In this document: positions 27 to 7,224 of the stretch, piece by piece
Numbering within the stretch: the stretch's first letter is position 1
How the letters are laid out: each line of letters starts with the position of its first letter
Assembly (NCBI GenBank): GCA_004379165.1
Contig: NKXK01000011.1
Location: 1-32,152, forward strand
Direction: 5' to 3'
From: Rhodocyclaceae bacterium
Lineage (GTDB): Bacteria; Pseudomonadota; Gammaproteobacteria; Burkholderiales; Rhodocyclaceae
DNA length: 32,152 bases
The notes under the pieces: model-generated
Databases searched by the model: none
Seen by the model: the letters and a program-made list of their open reading frames with translations, nothing else
What the model was told of the DNA's origin: nothing
Position numbers and translations under genes: made by a program

Positions 27-404
27 TTACGGAAGTCGCTTGAGGCAGGCGGCGAGGGCGGCGTCCATTGTCGCCAGATGGGTGGCAAACCAGGCGGGCA
101 GCGCCTCGACGTAACTGCGGGCGGTTTTAAGACGCCCGGCCTTGGCGGCGCGGCCCATGAAAGCCATTTCACCGAGGACACGCAGGTGTTCCGAGGTGTG
201 CTCGCCGGTCGCCGGGAAGCGGCACTGCTTCATCAGCACGGCTTCACCGTCGAAATGCTGGCGGGTATGCTCGGCCAGCGCCTCGAGCAGGCCGGGAAAG
301 CTCGCATCGTCGGCCGCCGTCAGCGCCTCGAGATGGGCGACGAATTCCCGATGGGTGGCGTCCATGGCCACCACCCCGAGCGCATGACGCTCATCCCAGG
401 CCAT
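27..404 (-). CDS. Bacteriohemerythrin (125 aa)
   Basis: Small four-helix di-iron protein of the bacteriohemerythrin family, which binds O2 reversibly and serves in O2 sensing, storage or delivery. Visible ligand pattern: an N-terminal His (DERH, residues 4-7), THREF near 20, HFDGE with His and Glu in the middle, HTSEH further on, and a C-terminal HLATMD. The length matches single-domain family members. The ATG at 404 overlaps the stop of the upstream gene (ATGA), so translation is probably coupled. It is the last gene of a three-gene operon with a sigma54 promoter and NifA-type site. I infer a role in O2 handling during nitrogen fixation. No signal peptide or fused domain is seen. Family call is firm; the physiological role is inferred. 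Confidence 0.85.
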   Translation of the reverse strand: MAWDERHALGVVAMDATHREFVAHLEALTAADDASFPGLLEALAEHTRQHFDGEAVLMKQCRFPATGEHTSEHLRVLGEMAFMGRAAKAGRLKTARSYVEALPAWFATHLATMDAALAACLKRLP

Positions 405-961
405 CAGACGGCGCCGTGCACTTCGCGCTTGGCGTTGTTGGTCGTCTTGAGGGCTTCTTCGACCGACATTTCCGGGTACTTGTACTTGTTTCCCTTGAGC
501 GCATTGAAGACGGTGACGATCTTGTCCGTCGGGCCCTGACCCTTGAAGTCGCCTTTTTCCAGCGCGGCGAGGTCGATCAGTTCGTTCCAGCACAGGCCTT
601 CGGTCAGCGAAATGAAGACGACGGTGCAGCCGTTGATGGTGGACACGAAAGATTTGGGGATATTGACCGTGAACATCACGGCGATGGTCGCCGGGGTCAG
701 GTCGACACCGAATTTTTCCATGAAGTGTGGCCAGTGCTGCAGTTCTTCCAGCGAGCCGGAGATCAGCTTCAGCTCGTCGCCCTGGGCAAGGACAGTGGCC
801 TGCTTGAAGAGGGCGACCGGCGGCTTGCGACGGCCCTGGTCATCGGCGACTTCGCCTTCGATGACGATCAGTTCGCCGCGATAGCCTTCCCAGCCGGCGT
901 CACTGCCTGCTTCGCGGAAATTGGAGTTGAAAAAGTACGGTGCGTAACGGTCAAGCAACAT
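404..961 (-). CDS. Conserved-looking protein of unknown function (185 aa), nif-linked operon
   Basis: I do not recognise this protein. It looks soluble, with no signal peptide or membrane segment, and has a mixed alpha/beta composition. There are only two Cys (in INGC and GLCW), so no obvious metal site. The C-terminal third is Lys-rich and polar. The start is well supported: GGGAGG lies about 7 nt before the ATG at 961. It follows the SIR2-like gene by 30 nt and overlaps the hemerythrin start by 3 nt, so the three are almost certainly co-transcribed. The only functional clue is this context: a shared promoter of the NifA/sigma54 type upstream of the first gene. Confidence 0.75.
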   Translation of the reverse strand: MLLDRYAPYFFNSNFREAGSDAGWEGYRGELIVIEGEVADDQGRRKPPVALFKQATVLAQGDELKLISGSLEELQHWPHFMEKFGVDLTPATIAVMFTVNIPKSFVSTINGCTVVFISLTEGLCWNELIDLAALEKGDFKGQGPTDKIVTVFNALKGNKYKYPEMSVEEALKTTNNAKREVHGAV

Positions 962-991
962 GGTGATACCTCCCTTTTTTTGGAAATGTTT

Positions 992-1828
992 TCAGGCGGC
1001 CTCGACGGCGCCGATGAATTCGAAAATGTCGGCGTCGATGATTTCGAGGCCGATCTTCTTGCAATAGCGTTTTTCCTTCTCCGTCGGCTCAGCGATGAAG
1101 ACCCAGCCGGCGGGTTCGGCCGCCGACCAGATGATGTCGGCCATCACCATGCGCTCGGTGTCGCGATTCAGGCGCATGCCCATCAGCAGGTACTGCTTGC
1201 CCTTGCGCAGGGCCTTGACCTCGGGCGGGATCGAATAGCCGCCCATCAGCTCGGTGATGAAATCGACGTAGTCGGCGTCGGACGCGATGTAGATGCCCTC
1301 CGGGCGCGGTGTGCCCATCGGCTTGAAGAGGATGGGGAGCGCCGGGTTGATCGTTTCGGTCGGCACGTAGGCATTACCGTTCCAGAAGTAGAGCTTGTAG
1401 CGGAAGGCCGTGCCGGCAATGCGCGCGATGCCGACGATCAGGGTATGCGGGACATCGGCGTAGGAGTCCTGCAGTTGCGTGTCGCGGTTGATGTCGATGA
1501 CGTAGGACGGGCGCAGCGCCTTGATCCAGTCATGCAGCGCGCCGCGCGTCCAGGTCGTCTCACCGTAGGTTTTGGTGAGGAACTTGGTGACCGTCGTGCG
1601 CCCGCGTTTCAGCTCGACATTCATCGCCGCGCGCGGGAATTCGTACATCAGCTTCGGCGCCATCGGCTTGCCGCCGTTCATGGCGATGATCAGCGAATCG
1701 CTGTCGGCGGGAATCCGCTCGCCGGTGGCGGGGTTGGTCACATCGGCGAGCACGCCGGGGCCAAGATAAGGCACGATGCTACCGTCCTTGAGGCCGGCGA
1801 GAAGCTTTTCGCGGAGTTCTGGGGTCAT
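992..1828 (-). CDS. Divergent SIR2-like domain protein (278 aa)
   Basis: Probably a SIR2_2-type Rossmann-fold protein; family members bind or hydrolyse NAD. The pattern is seen in order: PYLGPG (20-25) where SIR2-like proteins have a GAG-type nucleotide loop, DINRD (112-116) where they have a TNYD-like motif, FKPMG (168-172) where they have KLHG, SDADY (183-187) matching the usual TxxDY, and LLMGMRLNRDT (214-224) matching LFxGxSLxDxN. The expected catalytic His of the KLHG motif appears to be Met171, so enzymatic activity is doubtful. It is the first gene of the operon, and the ATG at 1828 lies about 22 nt below the predicted sigma54 transcription start. The family assignment rests on motif order only. 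The nif connection rests on the promoter. Confidence 0.65.
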   Translation of the reverse strand: MTPELREKLLAGLKDGSIVPYLGPGVLADVTNPATGERIPADSDSLIIAMNGGKPMAPKLMYEFPRAAMNVELKRGRTTVTKFLTKTYGETTWTRGALHDWIKALRPSYVIDINRDTQLQDSYADVPHTLIVGIARIAGTAFRYKLYFWNGNAYVPTETINPALPILFKPMGTPRPEGIYIASDADYVDFITELMGGYSIPPEVKALRKGKQYLLMGMRLNRDTERMVMADIIWSAAEPAGWVFIAEPTEKEKRYCKKIGLEIIDADIFEFIGAVEAA

Positions 1829-1861
1829 TTTGTCGGCTCTGAGTTGGGATCGACCCTACTC

Positions 1862-1877
1862 AGCAAATTCCGAGCCC
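1862..1877 (-). promoter_or_regulatory. Sigma54 -24/-12 promoter of the SIR2-like/hemerythrin operon
   Basis: On the minus strand the sequence reads GGGCTCGGAATTTGCT. Compared with TGGCACG-N4-TTGCT it keeps the invariant GG and GC with exactly 10 nt between them. Predicted transcription starts near 1850, about 22 nt before the ATG at 1828. A TGT-N10-ACA site lies 50 nt upstream, as at the nif promoters in this window. Confidence 0.75.
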
Positions 1878-1885
1878 AGAACGAA

Positions 1886-1930
1886 ACAACGCAGCGGTGC
1901 GCCTTTTCAGGCGCTCGGCCGCTGCGTTGT
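1886..1930 (-). terminator. Terminator hairpin after ureG
   Basis: On the minus strand a perfect 12-bp stem (ACAACGCAGCGG with its complement) encloses a second 6-bp stem, GCGCCT/AGGCGC, capped by a GAAA tetraloop. A short T-rich stretch (TTTCGTT) follows. It ends the urease transcript and separates it from the SIR2-like operon on the same strand. Its promoter-distal end is also the region from which the next operon is controlled. Confidence 0.75.
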
Positions 1931-1943
1931 CAGGTTTGCTACA
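1928..1943. promoter_or_regulatory. NifA-type upstream activator site (TGT-N10-ACA)
   Basis: TGTCAGGTTTGCTACA fits the NifA site TGT-N10-ACA exactly. Its reverse complement differs at one of 16 positions from the site upstream of nifV (30201). It is 50 nt from the sigma54 element at 1862 and overlaps the end of the ureG terminator stem. Confidence 0.7.
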
Positions 1944-1958
1944 GCGTATTTGGCGCGA

Positions 1959-2573
<615 letters not shown>

Positions 2574-2577
2574 GGTT

Positions 2578-3264
2578 TTACGATCTGAAGAGACGTGAAT
2601 ATTGAGTTTCGTGGCGGGCGCAGGCAATCGCGAAGCCCGGGGTGAAATTGGACCATGCCGATTTTGGCCGGTTTTCCGCGTTCACCGCAGTAGCCGGGAT
2701 GCGTGCCCCGAGGTCGGCCAGCAGGCGTTGGCCGGCGGCCTGGCCGAGCGGTACGGCCTTCAGCGCGGCCATCACCTGATTTTCAGCCCACGACCACAGG
2801 TAGGCGGTGAGGGCGGCTTCATGGTCGATCTGCCAGGCGGCGGCAATGCCGGCCCAGACGGTGGGAAAGGCCACTTCGGGCCAGGCTTCGACGGTTTGCG
2901 CCACGCCGGCAAGATTGTCGTCGCGCAGGTCGCGTAGCAGTCGGCGCAGCGAAAAGCCCATCTGGGCCGTTTCGGCGCGAAGCTCGGCCGATTCGCGGCT
3001 GGCGAGGAATTCGGCATTCAGGCATTCGACGTCGGCGAGGTCATGGGCTGACCACGCTGCCATCAGCGCCGCCAGCAGCGGCGCCTCGAAGCAGCCGATG
3101 CCGTGGTCGAGCAGGTCGGCGATCCAGCGGCCGGCCGTCGCCTCGTCGCGGATGATGCCAGCCTCGACGGCCCACTCCAAACCCTGCGAGTAGGTGTAGG
3201 CGCCAACCGGCAGCGCCGGGCTGGCCAGTTGCAGCAGGCGGGCGATTTGCAGTTGCGGGTTCAA
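2578..3264 (-). CDS. ureF: Urease accessory protein UreF (228 aa)
   Basis: Activates urease by forming the UreD-UreF-UreG complex and gating nickel transfer. All-helical UreF signatures are visible: [21 protein letters not shown] at the N terminus and the invariant tail [13 protein letters not shown]. The start is an unusual TTG at 3264 that overlaps the ureE stop (TTGA). No ATG lies near the conserved N terminus, so translation is probably coupled to ureE. Residues just before the tail ([14 protein letters not shown]) are encoded by a copy of a dispersed DNA repeat found elsewhere in the window (2648-2692). This replaces the usual acidic segment without a large length change. The function call is secure; the effect of the repeat on UreG/UreD contact is unknown. 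Confidence 0.95.
2648..2692 (-). repeat. Dispersed repeat copy D (inside ureF)
   Basis: The minus strand reads TGCGGTGAACGCGGAAAA followed by CCGGCCAAAATCGGCATGG. It is close to the intergenic copy at 15092-15139, with only a few mismatches and two one-base gaps. It is translated in the frame ACT-GCG-GTG-AAC as part of UreF. Confidence 0.7.
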
Positions 3265-3803
3265 CGCGGCTTGAACTCGTGAATCTTCGGCACCGAGCGA
3301 TGCGGACCGTGGCCGGGGTTGTGCAGGGCGGCGTGGTCATGGTCGGCTTCTCCATGATGATGGTGGCCGCCGTGCGCGCCATACGCGCCAGATTCCGGCT
3401 GGAAGGGGGCGTCTACTTCGCTCACCGAGCATCCCAAGCCTTTCACCATCTCGGCCAGTACGTGGTCGGTCTGCAGACGCAATACACCGCCGTTTTCGGT
3501 CGGCAGAATCTGCACCGGCACGTGGCGGTTGCCGAGGTGGTAGGCGGCGCGGGCGAAGAGCAGCGGGCTGTCGGCGACGGCCTCGATCAGCTTTTCCGGC
3601 GCGGCGAGGATTTCGACAACGGCGCTGCCGTCTTCCGCCACCAGCCTGTCGCCGCCGTGCAGGTGATCGCCACGATCAAGGAAGATGCCAGCTTCAAGAC
3701 CGGAAGCGAGCGTCACCTTGAGGCGGCTACGCTTGCGTTCGTCGTAGGCCAAGGCCACCGAGTCGGTGGCGGAGGCGGTGGTGCGTTGGTTGAGGATGAG
3801 CAT
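3261..3803 (-). CDS. ureE: Urease accessory nickel chaperone UreE (180 aa)
   Basis: Dimeric metallochaperone that binds Ni(II) and passes it to UreG. The N-terminal beta domain and central ferredoxin-like domain are recognisable (LPTE, LGNRH, LQTDHVLAEMVKGLG). The C-terminal tail carries the His-rich nickel-binding segment GGHHHHGEADHDH and further His residues. It starts with an ATG at 3803 and overlaps ureF by 4 nt. It is separated from ureC by an 87-nt gap that holds a long inverted repeat. Confidence 0.96.
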   Translation of the reverse strand: MLILNQRTTASATDSVALAYDERKRSRLKVTLASGLEAGIFLDRGDHLHGGDRLVAEDGSAVVEILAAPEKLIEAVADSPLLFARAAYHLGNRHVPVQILPTENGGVLRLQTDHVLAEMVKGLGCSVSEVDAPFQPESGAYGAHGGHHHHGEADHDHAALHNPGHGPHRSVPKIHEFKPR

Positions 3804-3820
3804 GTTAGTTCGTCTTCAGC

Positions 3821-3880
3821 GTCATCCCCGCGAAAGCGGGGATCCACAATTCGCTGGATTCCCGCCTGCGCGGGAATGAC
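3821..3880. repeat. REP-like inverted repeat between ureC and ureE
   Basis: Two roughly 26-nt arms, GTCATCCCCGCGAAAGCGGG.. and ..CCCGCCTGCGCGGGAATGAC, are mirror images around a short AT-richer centre. The same unit appears at 5930-5959 and 15174-15241. As RNA it would form a stable hairpin inside the urease transcript and could tune ureEFG relative to ureC. Confidence 0.85.
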
Positions 3881-3890
3881 AGCAGGGGTG

Positions 3891-5597
3891 TTAGAACAGG
3901 AAGTAACGTTGTGCCAGCGGCAGTTCAGTTGCCGGTTCACAGACCAGATGCACGCCGTCGGCCTTGACCACGTAGGTTTCGGGATCGACGGTGATTTCCG
4001 GCGTAGCACCGTTGTGCACCATGTCGGACTTCTGCACGCAACGGCAACCCGAGACGGCGATCAGCGGCTTGCTCAGCCTCAGCGCGGCGACGGCAGGGTT
4101 GTTCAGCGCGGCCTGCGAGACGAAGGTGACCGAGGTTTTCAGCGCCTTGCCGAAGCTGCCGAACATCGGCCGGTAATGCACCGGTTGCGGCGTCGGGATC
4201 GAGGCGTTGGGATCACCCATCGCGGCGGCGGCGATCATGCCGCCCTTGAGGATCAGCGATGGTTTGACGCCGAAGAAAGCCGGTTTCCAAAGCACCAGGT
4301 CGGCCAGCTTGCCGACCTCGATGGAACCGACGGTGTGGGCGATGCCGTGGGTCAGCGCCGGGTTGATGGTGTATTTGGCGATGTAGCGCTTGACGCGGAA
4401 GTTGTCGTGGCGGGAGCTGTCTTCCGGCAGCGTGCCGCGCTGCAGCTTCATCTTGTGCGCCGCCTGCCAGGTGCGGATGATGACCTCGCCAACGCGGCCC
4501 ATGGCCTGCGAGTCGGAGCTCATCATCGAGAAGACGCCGAGGTCGTGCAGGATGTCTTCGGCGGCAATGGTTTCGCGACGGATGCGGCTTTCGGCGAAGG
4601 CAATGTCCTCGGCGATGCTCGGGTCGAGGTGGTGGCAAACCATCAGCATGTCGAGATGCTCGTCGATGGTATTCACCGTGTAGGGCATGGTCGGGTTGGT
4701 CGAGCTGGGCAGCACATTGGGCAGTCCGGCCGCCTTGATGATGTCCGGCGCATGGCCGCCGCCAGCGCCTTCGGTGTGGAAGGTGTGGATGGTGCGGCCC
4801 TTGAAGGCGCCGATGGTTGCCTCGACGAAGCCGGATTCGTTGAGCGTGTCGGTGTGGATGGCAACCTGAATGTCCATCTCGTCGGCAACGCTCAAACAGC
4901 AGTCGATGGCGGCCGGCGTCGTGCCCCAGTCCTCGTGCAGCTTCAGGCCGATAACGCCGGCTTCAACCTGCTCGCGCAGCGCCTCCGGCAGGCTGGCGTT
5001 GCCCTTGCCGAGGAAACCGAGGTTCATCGGGAAAGCATCGGCGGCTTCCAGCATGCGGTGGATGTGCCAGGGGCCGGGCGTGCACGTCGTTGCATAGGTG
5101 CCGGTCGCCGGCCCGGTGCCGCCGCCGATCATCGTGGTAACGCCGGAGTTCAGCGCTTCCTCGATCTGCTGCGGGCAGATGAAATGGATGTGGCTGTCGA
5201 TGCCGCCGGCGGTGACGATCATGCCTTCGCCGGCGATGACTTCGGTGCCGGGGCCGACGACAATCGTCACGCCCGGCTGGATGTCCGGATTGCCGGCCTT
5301 GCCGATGGCGGCGATGCGGCCATCCTTCAAGCCGATGTCGGCCTTGACGATACCGGTGATGGCGTCGACGATTAGCGCGTTGGTGATCACGGTATCGACG
5401 GTTTCAGCGGAAACGCGCTGGCTCTGGCCCATGCCGTCGCGGATGACCTTGCCGCCGCCGAATTTCACTTCCTCGCCGTAGATCGTGTAGTCCTGCTCGA
5501 CCTCGATGATCAGTTCGGTATCGGCCAGACGCAGGCGGTCACTGGTGGTCGGGCCGAACATTTCGGCATAGGCCTGACGGGTAATTTTATTCGCCAT
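3891..5597 (-). CDS. ureC: Urease alpha subunit UreC (568 aa)
   Basis: Catalytic subunit of urease: urea + H2O to ammonia and carbamate, with a dinuclear nickel centre in the cytoplasm. The full active site is visible with a +2 offset from the Klebsiella numbering: His136 and His138 (HIH), carbamylated Lys219 with His221 (LKLHEDWG), His248, His274 ([12 protein letters not shown]), the flap Cys321 with neighbouring His residues (MVCHHL), and Asp362 (SSDSQAMGR). Length is standard. The ATG at 5597 shares one base with the ureB stop and is preceded by GGGAG. Confidence 0.99.
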
Positions 5598-5902
5598 TAC
5601 AGTGCTCCCTGAACGAGGCCGCGGAAACCATAGACTTTGCGGTCACCGGCCAGCGCCACCAGTTGCACGGTGCGCGTCTGGCCCGGCTCGAAGCGCACGG
5701 CGGTGCCGGCGGCGATGTCGAGGCGGTAGCCTCGGGCGGCCTCGCGGTCGAAGCTGAGGCCGGCGTTGGTTTCGTAAAAATGGTAGTGCGAGCCGACCTG
5801 AATCGGCCGGTCACCCGTATTGGCGACGACCAGAGTGATGGTCGGGCGGCCGGCGTTGAGTTCGAGTTCGCCGGCTTCGGCGAGGAGTTCTCCGGGGGTC
5901 AT
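5597..5902 (-). CDS. ureB: Urease beta subunit UreB (101 aa)
   Basis: Structural small subunit of the (alpha-beta-gamma)3 urease. It begins MTPGELL, like the MIPGE start of most UreB, and contains the conserved [12 protein letters not shown] and [12 protein letters not shown] segments and a VYGFRGLV tail. The ATG at 5902 is chosen over an adjacent in-frame TTG at 5905; AGGA lies about 9 nt upstream. It overlaps the ureC start by one base, so translation is likely coupled. Confidence 0.97.
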
Positions 5903-5929
5903 CAATTATTCCTAACGTAATTCTTGCTG

Positions 5930-5959
5930 CCGTCACTCCCGCCTGCGCGGGAGTGACGG
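5930..5959. repeat. REP-like perfect palindrome between ureA and ureB
   Basis: A perfect 13-bp inverted repeat, CCGTCACTCCCGC-CTGC-GCGGGAGTGACGG, lies in the 66-nt ureA-ureB gap. It is the shorter relative of the elements at 3821 and 15174. Confidence 0.85.
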
Positions 5960-5968
5960 AGCGGGCAA

Positions 5969-6271
5969 TCAAACTATCGGGTTATGCACGGTGACCAGCT
6001 TGGTGCCGTCCGGGAAGGTGGCCTCAACCTGGATTTCCGGGATCAACTCGGCGATGCCGTTCATCACGTCGGCACGGGTCAGTATCTGCGTGCCTGCGTG
6101 CATCAGCTCGGCCACGGTCTTGCCCTCGCGGGCGCCTTCCATGATGGCGCAGGTGATCAGCGCCACGGCTTCTGGGTAGTTCAGCTTCAGGCCCGTGGCC
6201 TTGCGCCGTTCGGCGAGCAGGCCGGCAGTGAAGATCAGCAGCTTGTCTTTCTCGCGGGGTGTCAGTTCCAT
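5969..6271 (-). CDS. ureA: Urease gamma subunit UreA (100 aa)
   Basis: Smallest structural subunit of bacterial urease. It shows the typical start [17 protein letters not shown], the core [12 protein letters not shown], and the C-terminal [21 protein letters not shown]. The length of 100 aa is exactly that of the family. It follows ureD by 9 nt and precedes ureB across a palindrome-containing gap. Confidence 0.99.
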
Positions 6272-6280
6272 GAAGACTCC

Positions 6281-7147
6281 TCAGGTATTCCAGATTCGGG
6301 GGATGACGGCCGGGCGGCCACAACAGGCCGGGCGCAGGATGGTCCAGAGTTGGGCAAACCACTGCCGGGCTGCCTCACTGTTGTCGCCCAGGTAACGGGC
6401 GATCAGAACGCCTGGCAGCGCGGTGATGCCGTGCTGCGACGCATCGGCCGGCGCGATGGCGCGCAGCGCTTCGAGCAGCGCAGCGGCGTGCTGCGGCAAT
6501 TCCGGAAAGCTGCACAGCAGCGTGCCGCACACCGAATGTCCCGCCCAACCGGCTGGACTGGCCAGCATCGGATCGTTACCGGCCACCTGGCCACGCTCCA
6601 GCCAGATTGGTTGACCGTCGCGGTCAACCCGAAAAAACAGCGAAATTTCGCCTTTTTCAAACCGCTCACCGCTTGCTGCTCGGCCCAGGCACAGGATGTC
6701 CAAGCCGATGTAGCGGCTATCGGCGGCGAGGCTGACGCGTGTTTCCATGCGTGCCTTCGCGCCGTCGAAAACGATGGTTTCCTGCGGCAGCCATTCCAGC
6801 GTTGCACCTTCTCTCGCCGTGAAATCGATGCACTGCGATGCCTCGAGCCCGCCACTGCGGTACCACTTGCCTGCCCCTGGCGTCGTCAGCTGGGCGAGTG
6901 CGTTGGTTCCAACCTCAGCGGCTATGCTCAACTGGTCGCCGCCCGCAATGCCTGATGGCGGATGCAGCACGATGGCCTGGCAGAGGGCTTCGCCCTCCGG
7001 ATATAACGCCTTCTGCACCCGCAACGGCCCACGATGCCGATTTTCGCGCAGCACCGTCCGTTCGCCAGCGCGGGCGAAGCCGAGGCGCAAATCCGCATGC
7101 CAGCTTGCTGCTGAGGCCGGCTGTGAAACGGGAAGACAGGAATTCAT
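6281..7147 (-). CDS. ureD: Urease accessory protein UreD (288 aa)
   Basis: Scaffold protein that binds apo-urease and, with UreF and UreG, channels nickel to the active site. Recognisable segments are RGPLRVQKALYPEG, HPPSGIAGGDQL, TTPGAGKWYRS and LPQETIVFDGA, in family order and at normal length. The ATG at 7147 (MNSCLPVSQ) is chosen over a TTG 24 nt upstream. It is the first gene of the urease operon and is divergent from the GGDEF gene across about 200 nt. Bases 6618-6650 inside the gene resemble the dispersed repeat seen elsewhere, but the encoded FFRVDRDGQPIW is ordinary for UreD. Confidence 0.95.
   Translation of the reverse strand: MNSCLPVSQPASAASWHADLRLGFARAGERTVLRENRHRGPLRVQKALYPEGEALCQAIVLHPPSGIAGGDQLSIAAEVGTNALAQLTTPGAGKWYRSGGLEASQCIDFTAREGATLEWLPQETIVFDGAKARMETRVSLAADSRYIGLDILCLGRAASGERFEKGEISLFFRVDRDGQPIWLERGQVAGNDPMLASPAGWAGHSVCGTLLCSFPELPQHAAALLEALRAIAPADASQHGITALPGVLIARYLGDNSEAARQWFAQLWTILRPACCGRPAVIPRIWNT
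6618..6650 (+). repeat. Possible dispersed repeat copy E (inside ureD, weak)
   Basis: The plus strand reads CGCGGTCAACCCGAAAAAAC and then GCGAAATTTCG. This matches the 5-prime half of the dispersed repeat well and the 3-prime half poorly. Because the antisense codons give normal UreD sequence, a chance match is possible. Confidence 0.35.
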
Positions 7148-7224
7148 ATGGGGATTATCCGGGGAAGCCAAGTGGGAGGGGAATACGCAGGAATACGCAG
7201 GGGTTGGAAGCGATACTACGGACC

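Follow-up and report, generated by a model that had tools for sequence, protein, structure and literature searches.

Why would a gene for a SIR2-like protein and a gene for a hemerythrin stand together behind a promoter of the type that serves nitrogen fixation (nif) genes? The question is raised by one end of a 32,152-nt contig of a Rhodocyclaceae bacterium (NKXK01000011.1, assembly GCA_004379165.1; the whole stretch is here called the window), where three minus-strand genes are packed between positions 1828 and 27. The lead open reading frame (ORF; 992–1828) encodes a PnfA-like SIR2 protein of 278 aa and 31.0 kDa; the middle gene (404–961; 185 aa), which falls in no named family, begins 30 bp past the SIR2 stop; and the start of the third gene, encoding a single-domain hemerythrin of 125 aa (27–404), overlaps the middle-gene stop by one base as TGATG. 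The nearest named proteins place this genome probably in Azonexus or Dechloromonas. A sequence-only reading of the window had described these ORFs together with two promoter sites upstream, all of which are present at the positions it gave, and had proposed that NifA and sigma54 control an accessory module that protects nitrogenase or couples it to O2 or nicotinamide adenine dinucleotide (NAD) status. We find that the three genes likely form one accessory operon and propose, with a probability of about 0.57, that this operon, lying under nif-type NifA/sigma54 sites, acts after nif transcription and keeps nitrogenase active in cells respiring at low oxygen.

The two sites lie on the minus strand: a sigma54 −24/−12 element, GGGCTCGGAATTTGCT (1862–1877), in which GG-N10-GC is kept, and a NifA-type upstream activator site, TGTCAGGTTTGCTACA (1928–1943; TGTAGCAAACCTGACA on the sense strand), with a perfect TGT-N10-ACA. 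The same two-site layout occurs at the nifN, iscA and nifV promoters of this window, and the activator site is 15/16 identical, in reverse complement, to that of nifV, both likenesses having been noticed earlier and proving correct on inspection. A scan of the window for both sites jointly returned nine pairs, namely those of the SIR2 operon, nifN, iscA and nifV and five others that we take as chance. Homologous loci were compared at three levels: 19 of the 49 other genomes of the genus that have the middle gene, picked through that gene, 20 of the places in the family with a window-type SIR2 (at least 41% identity) and 16 of 18 in the class, own genome aside. TGT-N10-ACA and GG-N10-GC stood in the right order 5′ of SIR2 at 48/55 loci (genus 19/19, family 15/20, class 14/16), and the pair was absent there from the remaining seven (L046, L049, L055, L059, L063, L186 and L193). 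At control positions, which overlap one another and were drawn from the family and class loci with the SIR2 neighbourhood included, the frequency was 733/34,930 (2.1%). The distance between the sites was 49–52 bp, about five helix turns, in the window and 18/19 genus loci despite variable DNA between them, and 39 to 108 bp in family and class loci. This conservation across relatives lifts the site pair above chance. Moreover, some family loci (L045, L048 and L051, for example) have the pair inside the short draT–SIR2 gap, so that a separate promoter probably serves SIR2 in them. Since the sites are conserved, nifA and rpoN genes are present in the own genome (on other contigs) and expression data have been published for relatives, the proposed NifA/sigma54 control of the operon is well supported.

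Those data come mainly from Pseudomonas stutzeri A1501, in which PST1325, named pnfA in 2010, lies opposite nifH behind a −24/−12 box and TGT-N10-ACA and, by quantitative reverse-transcription PCR, requires NifA and sigma54 for expression, as described in the sections of that report drawn on here (PMC2820453). According to the same sections, a non-polar pnfA mutant transcribed nifH normally, and its nitrogenase activity at 0.5% O2 was 23% of the wild-type value; it was wild-type-like anaerobically without nitrate but failed with nitrate as electron acceptor (PMC2820453). It is this phenotype that leads us to place the lead protein of the window operon after transcription and in respiring cells. 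The window gene is likely PnfA, with PST1325 as its likely counterpart, on the grounds of the SIR2 name (PST_1325 is entered as a SIR2 family protein in the part used of a 2024 paper, PMC11332353), size (31.7 versus 31.0 kDa), position, promoter and the list of relatives given in 2010, which includes Dechloromonas aromatica at 54% (PMC2820453). As in A1501, where pnfA is divergent to nifHDK, nifH is divergent to the window-type SIR2 gene in 43/53 loci with at least 3 kb of upstream sequence (15/19, 17/20 and 11/14 by level). The surroundings differ: in the excerpted A1501 data the next genes are a conserved hypothetical, a nitrogen fixation-related protein, nifY2 and rnf (PMC2820453), whereas the window neighbours are the middle gene, the hemerythrin gene and urease-like genes, and in the own genome nifD, nifH and draT are on a different contig (C3, L074) and draG on C29, all outside the window contig. 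NifA control of this gene is not new, being published for the likely counterpart.

A link between the lead gene and nitrogen fixation is supported by its distribution. Among 249 genomes of the family, 105 have SIR2 and 108 have nifD, both occurring in 96, SIR2 only in 9, nifD only in 12 and neither in 132 (Fisher p 6e-44, shared ancestry ignored). When SIR2 and nifD share a contig (81 pairs), they are within 20 kb of each other in 78 cases and within 5 kb in 59. In the genus, the middle gene was present in 50/76 genomes, every one of them belonging to the 55 that gave a NifD-family match (a loose limit that includes partial and NifE-like matches; 42/76 pass the curated cut-off). These observations support the assignment of the lead gene to a nitrogenase-linked SIR2 family. 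The 105 SIR2 genomes comprise 79 with the window type, 23 with a distant type (25–30% identity) and 3 with fragments only. The distant type is widespread, occurring in Azoarcus, Aromatoleum, Rhodopseudomonas, Methylocystis, Beijerinckia and Azospirillum among the best 80 of 570 confirmed stretches in a scan of named genomes, with a nifZ match in 74 and a nifB match in 67 of those 80. This second clade, 22–26% identical to the window protein in another comparison, is found mostly in a nifB–nifZ group and not in a draT–SIR2–hemerythrin arrangement. A plasmid search with SIR2 returned 72 records, 55 of them from Rhizobium, all below 60% identity and those listed, 20 in number, at 28–29%; on Rhizobium etli p42d the order is nifA–nifB–4Fe-4S protein–nifZ–nifT–SIR2, with a SIR2 protein of the distant type, 28.5% identical to that of the window. 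It shares its place in a nif cluster with the SIR2 family protein Rcc03262 of Rhodobacter capsulatus, which we liken to ours by description and which, in the portion of the proteome study cited, is listed beside NifT and was detected in the wild type and never in a nifA double mutant (PMC6925177). Further SIR2-like proteins are described in a Rhodovulum nif operon (PMC9412634, in part) and, as ZMO1821, in the nif island of Zymomonas mobilis, where the sections cited report raised levels under N2 fixation (PMC8600466); the latter is again likened by description.

What accompanies SIR2 varies with the level of comparison. In the common order, nifD and nifH run leftward, followed rightward by draT, SIR2, in some cases the middle gene, then hemerythrin and a Rieske gene, and then leftward by draG, ferredoxin, flavodiiron-like, nifO-like and nifB genes. 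The names draT, draG, Rieske and nifO-like were confirmed by family models, those of the ferredoxin and flavodiiron-like genes are below-cut-off matches, and nifB, nifH and nifK in the locus maps were named by similarity and eye. Hemerythrin was found within 3 kb downstream of SIR2 in 32/54 loci (genus 15/19, family 11/20, class 6/15), and the middle gene within 6 kb in 16/16 genus loci (by construction), 4/20 family loci and 0/13 class loci. A Rieske gene lay within 6 kb in 3/16, 1/20 and 0/13 loci; in a few genus genomes this [2Fe-2S] protein gene follows hemerythrin (L026:11160-11534 and similar), and the window contig stops short of the corresponding place, its nt 1 being the contig end (G000:C20:1) just beyond the 3′ side of the hemerythrin gene.

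The hemerythrin matches PF01814 (30.6, cut-off 25.3) and TIGR02481 (63.6, cut-off 51.75) and does not reach the curated threshold for the bacteriohemerythrin model NF033749 (63.7 versus 84). Residues H18, H50, E54, H69, H73, H109 and D114, which fit the seven-ligand diiron pattern of hemerythrins, are kept in 31/31 aligned sequences, so that in length and ligands the protein is like single-domain bacterial hemerythrins, from which its gene differs in having a nif-type promoter and operon. The protein is predicted to bind O2. As for the middle protein, it gave no Pfam match over the cut-off (best DUF7684, E 0.12) and no NCBIfam match; its predicted model is confident (pLDDT, the predicted local distance difference test, 90) and had no good fold match in the PDB, and it could be a new fold. 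Distant relatives (22–31% identity) occur in 14 other nif loci (L065, L067, L068, L070, L097, L103, L104, L113, L119, L123, L135, L147, L150 and L152). As these were fetched via SIR2 or nif genes, the nif location is by construction and only the order ahead of draT is a finding: 7/14 lie directly ahead of draT in the same direction, the other seven being near nifO-like, nifZ, nifB, nifH or SIR2 genes. The middle-protein relatives are a possible unnamed third dra gene.

The recurrence of dra genes brings up the strongest alternative, in which the operon is the O2- and energy-sensing arm of DraT/DraG, the pseudo-sirtuin reading NAD or ADP-ribose and the hemerythrin O2 so as to set DraT/DraG activity on NifH. 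draT precedes SIR2 in the same orientation in 39/53 loci (genus 15/19, family 18/20, class 6/14), with draG reversed downstream in many, and DRAT is present in 76/79 genomes with window-type SIR2. Two genomes (G230 and G280; loci L072 and L073) keep nifD and have a decayed SIR2 beside nifH; no DRAT match was found genome-wide in either, and the locus maps contain no draT and no draG. The position of half of the middle-gene relatives ahead of draT fits this alternative, as does the statement, in the passage cited, that the signals for DraT/DraG energy switch-off are "not completely understood" (PMC6067124). Against a strict tie, 8/14 class loci lack draT upstream of SIR2 in the stretch examined and 11 family genomes have DRAT without SIR2. 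Furthermore, draT and SIR2 both hug nifH, and their proximity may be mere nif clustering. The nif-associated SIR2 of Z. mobilis occurs with no draT or draG identified, and no DraT/DraG was found in P. stutzeri A1501 according to the sections used of the pnfA report (PMC2820453). Because PnfA is present where DraT/DraG were not found, these cannot be its sole target. We consider a dedicated DraT/DraG arm conceivable but unlikely.

A less likely alternative is enzymatic: the SIR2 protein would be active as an NAD-dependent deacetylase or an NADase, with nitrogenase or NifA as its target, in line with the deacetylase activity predicted for ZMO1821 by its authors in the part of their paper cited (PMC8600466). 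The window protein matches SIR2_2 (PF13289; 26 bits, cut-off 24.5), and its predicted model matches the SIR2 fold, with DSR2, KomC and ThsA as best fold matches; a single-sequence PDB search gave only E >= 0.19, and a profile search reached KomC (E 0.0019) in an alignment that stops at residue 150. N114 of a T-x-N-x-D motif, aligned to TTNYD of KomC, is kept in 280/280 window-type sequences, H99 in 279/280 and H128 in 280/280. The position of the catalytic histidine was mapped in two ways, by motif order or by the weak profile alignment, using 367 nif-linked SIR2 sequences (280 window-type and 87 of the second clade, many near-identical). By motif order, KPMG occupies the place of the sirtuin-type K-x-H-G in the window protein, and no histidine is found at the H-G place in 367/367 sequences, residue 171 being M in the window protein, M, L or C in 280/280 window-type sequences and never H in the 87 of the second clade. 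The KomC alignment instead sets F-H-G near residues 147–149, with low stated certainty there, and makes residue 148 the critical one, an F in the window protein and an H in 116/280 window-type sequences. We prefer K169–G172 over residues 147–149 as the place of the catalytic histidine because of the preceding strand, the invariant glycine and the S-D-x-D-Y-V motif that follows; in the window protein the histidine is missing under both mappings (M171 or F148). In KomC and DSR2, by contrast, histidines H146 and H171, respectively, were mutated according to the entry titles and are taken as catalytic. The second clade also lacks the asparagine, the N114 position being W in 85/87. H99 aligns with a KomC histidine and is probably structural, and H128, kept in all window-type sequences and in 0/87 of the second clade, may carry a clade-specific function. 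From these residues the lead protein is probably non-hydrolysing, its enzyme activity lost, and given that no catalytic histidine is found, NAD may at most be bound. An active enzyme is accordingly disfavoured, and the 367 sequences without a catalytic histidine by motif order set this family apart from the deacetylase proposed for ZMO1821.

Less probable still, a sigma54 activator other than NifA may act on the promoter, or the sites upstream may be fortuitous. GGGCTCGGAATTTGCT has two mismatches to TGGCAY-N5-TTGCW, and with two mismatches allowed this consensus by itself is matched in the window little more often than chance would give, 38 times where 29 are expected, a number reached in 8/100 shuffles. 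Opposed to this are the presence of TGT-N10-ACA at a fixed distance across the genus and the NifA dependence measured for P. stutzeri pnfA (PMC2820453, as excerpted) and seen for Rcc03262 in the R. capsulatus proteome (PMC6925177, as excerpted), so that we regard this explanation as very unlikely.

Finally, although the best fold matches are the defence proteins DSR2, KomC and ThsA, the idea of an anti-phage or other general SIR2 system lying beside nif by chance was rejected as extremely unlikely, since a PADLOC scan (E <= 0.01) assigned no family to the SIR2 protein, the middle protein or one second-clade SIR2 (the hemerythrin being outside the scan), and tight co-occurrence with nifD and nif-type promoters contradict it.

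The reading that we favour, of an operon that sustains nitrogenase in respiring cells after nif transcription, can be worded as a mechanism. The lead pseudo-sirtuin would bind, but not cleave, NAD(H) or an ADP-ribose-like nucleotide, and its nucleotide-bound state would signal respiratory status; the hemerythrin would bind O2 beside it, as buffer or sensor, and the middle protein would be a nif-linked partner. The target might be DraT/DraG where present, the nearness of draT and draG suggesting the ADP-ribosylation switch as one possibility, or the delivery of electrons or ATP to nitrogenase. As to the protective or coupling module imagined in the sequence-only reading, a role in O2 tolerance or energy is plausible from the pnfA phenotype, whereas coupling to NAD is unproven for a SIR2 fold without a catalytic histidine. 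Several observations weigh against our proposal. Regarding gene content, 22/54 loci have no hemerythrin within 3 kb of SIR2 (three have one at 3.2–4.8 kb) and 16/20 family loci lack the middle gene beside it, which means that SIR2 can occur without both; in addition, SIR2 was not matched in 12/108 family genomes with nifD. At the protein level, the KomC alignment, with its histidine at residue 148 in many window-type sequences, makes loss of catalysis uncertain, H99 and H128 are conserved, and NAD binding by the lead protein is a prediction. The −24/−12 element departs from the canonical −24 box at two positions. Expression data and a mutant phenotype come from relatives, and the probable PnfA assignment was made on the five grounds given above. 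Lastly, the A1501 table, as excerpted, names no hemerythrin there, and two of the neighbours are called only hypothetical or nitrogen fixation-related (PMC2820453). A bolder extension, that PnfA-type proteins are widespread dead sirtuins reading NAD or ADP-ribose and, together with an O2-reading hemerythrin and a dra-linked partner, make up the missing oxygen and energy sensor of DraT/DraG, we hold to be speculative and rather doubtful.

Other features of the operon and its surroundings were recorded alongside. GGGAGGT, resembling a ribosome-binding site, lies at 968–974 on the minus strand, six bases ahead of the middle-gene ATG. The minus-strand spacer between the two promoter sites (1877–1927), whose length is kept and whose sequence is variable, contains most of a 10-bp inverted repeat (1888–1897/1919–1928; AACGCAGCGG/CCGCTGCGTT) with an inner stem; the repeat reaches the first base of the activator site and may be the terminator of the preceding urease-like gene. 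A GGAAA block stands at about the same distance in 11/19 window and genus rows and 14/47 overall. By eye, a urease-like gene cluster (1959–7171) adjoins the operon in this species, most mapped relatives having nifHDK/draT there instead, and an ORF at the far contig end (31553–32149) resembles an IS110-type transposase.

In the open-licence literature we found no paper joining hemerythrin, nif and SIR2 and none joining draT, draG and hemerythrin; hemerythrin is named in a nif-cluster legend of a 2024 Nature paper (PMC11208148, seen as an excerpt), and an Azoarcus transposon-sequencing (Tn-Seq) paper has neither SIR2 nor hemerythrin in its main text. As far as our analysis shows, what is new is the SIR2–middle gene–hemerythrin operon, its frequent draT–draG setting, the missing catalytic histidine and the nif-linked middle protein.

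How nitrogenase activity is adjusted to oxygen and energy at the post-transcriptional level is understood only in part. In this operon a SIR2-fold protein of a nitrogenase-linked family, with a mutant phenotype on record for its likely counterpart, is tied to a protein predicted to bind O2 and to the locus of draT and draG, and the particular genes and residues on which tests can be made are now named. As for the deacetylase role published for SIR2 proteins linked to nif, the absence of the catalytic histidine speaks against it and in favour of a sensor or scaffold. For the transfer of nitrogen fixation to other hosts, too, accessory genes that sustain nitrogenase at low oxygen are of importance.

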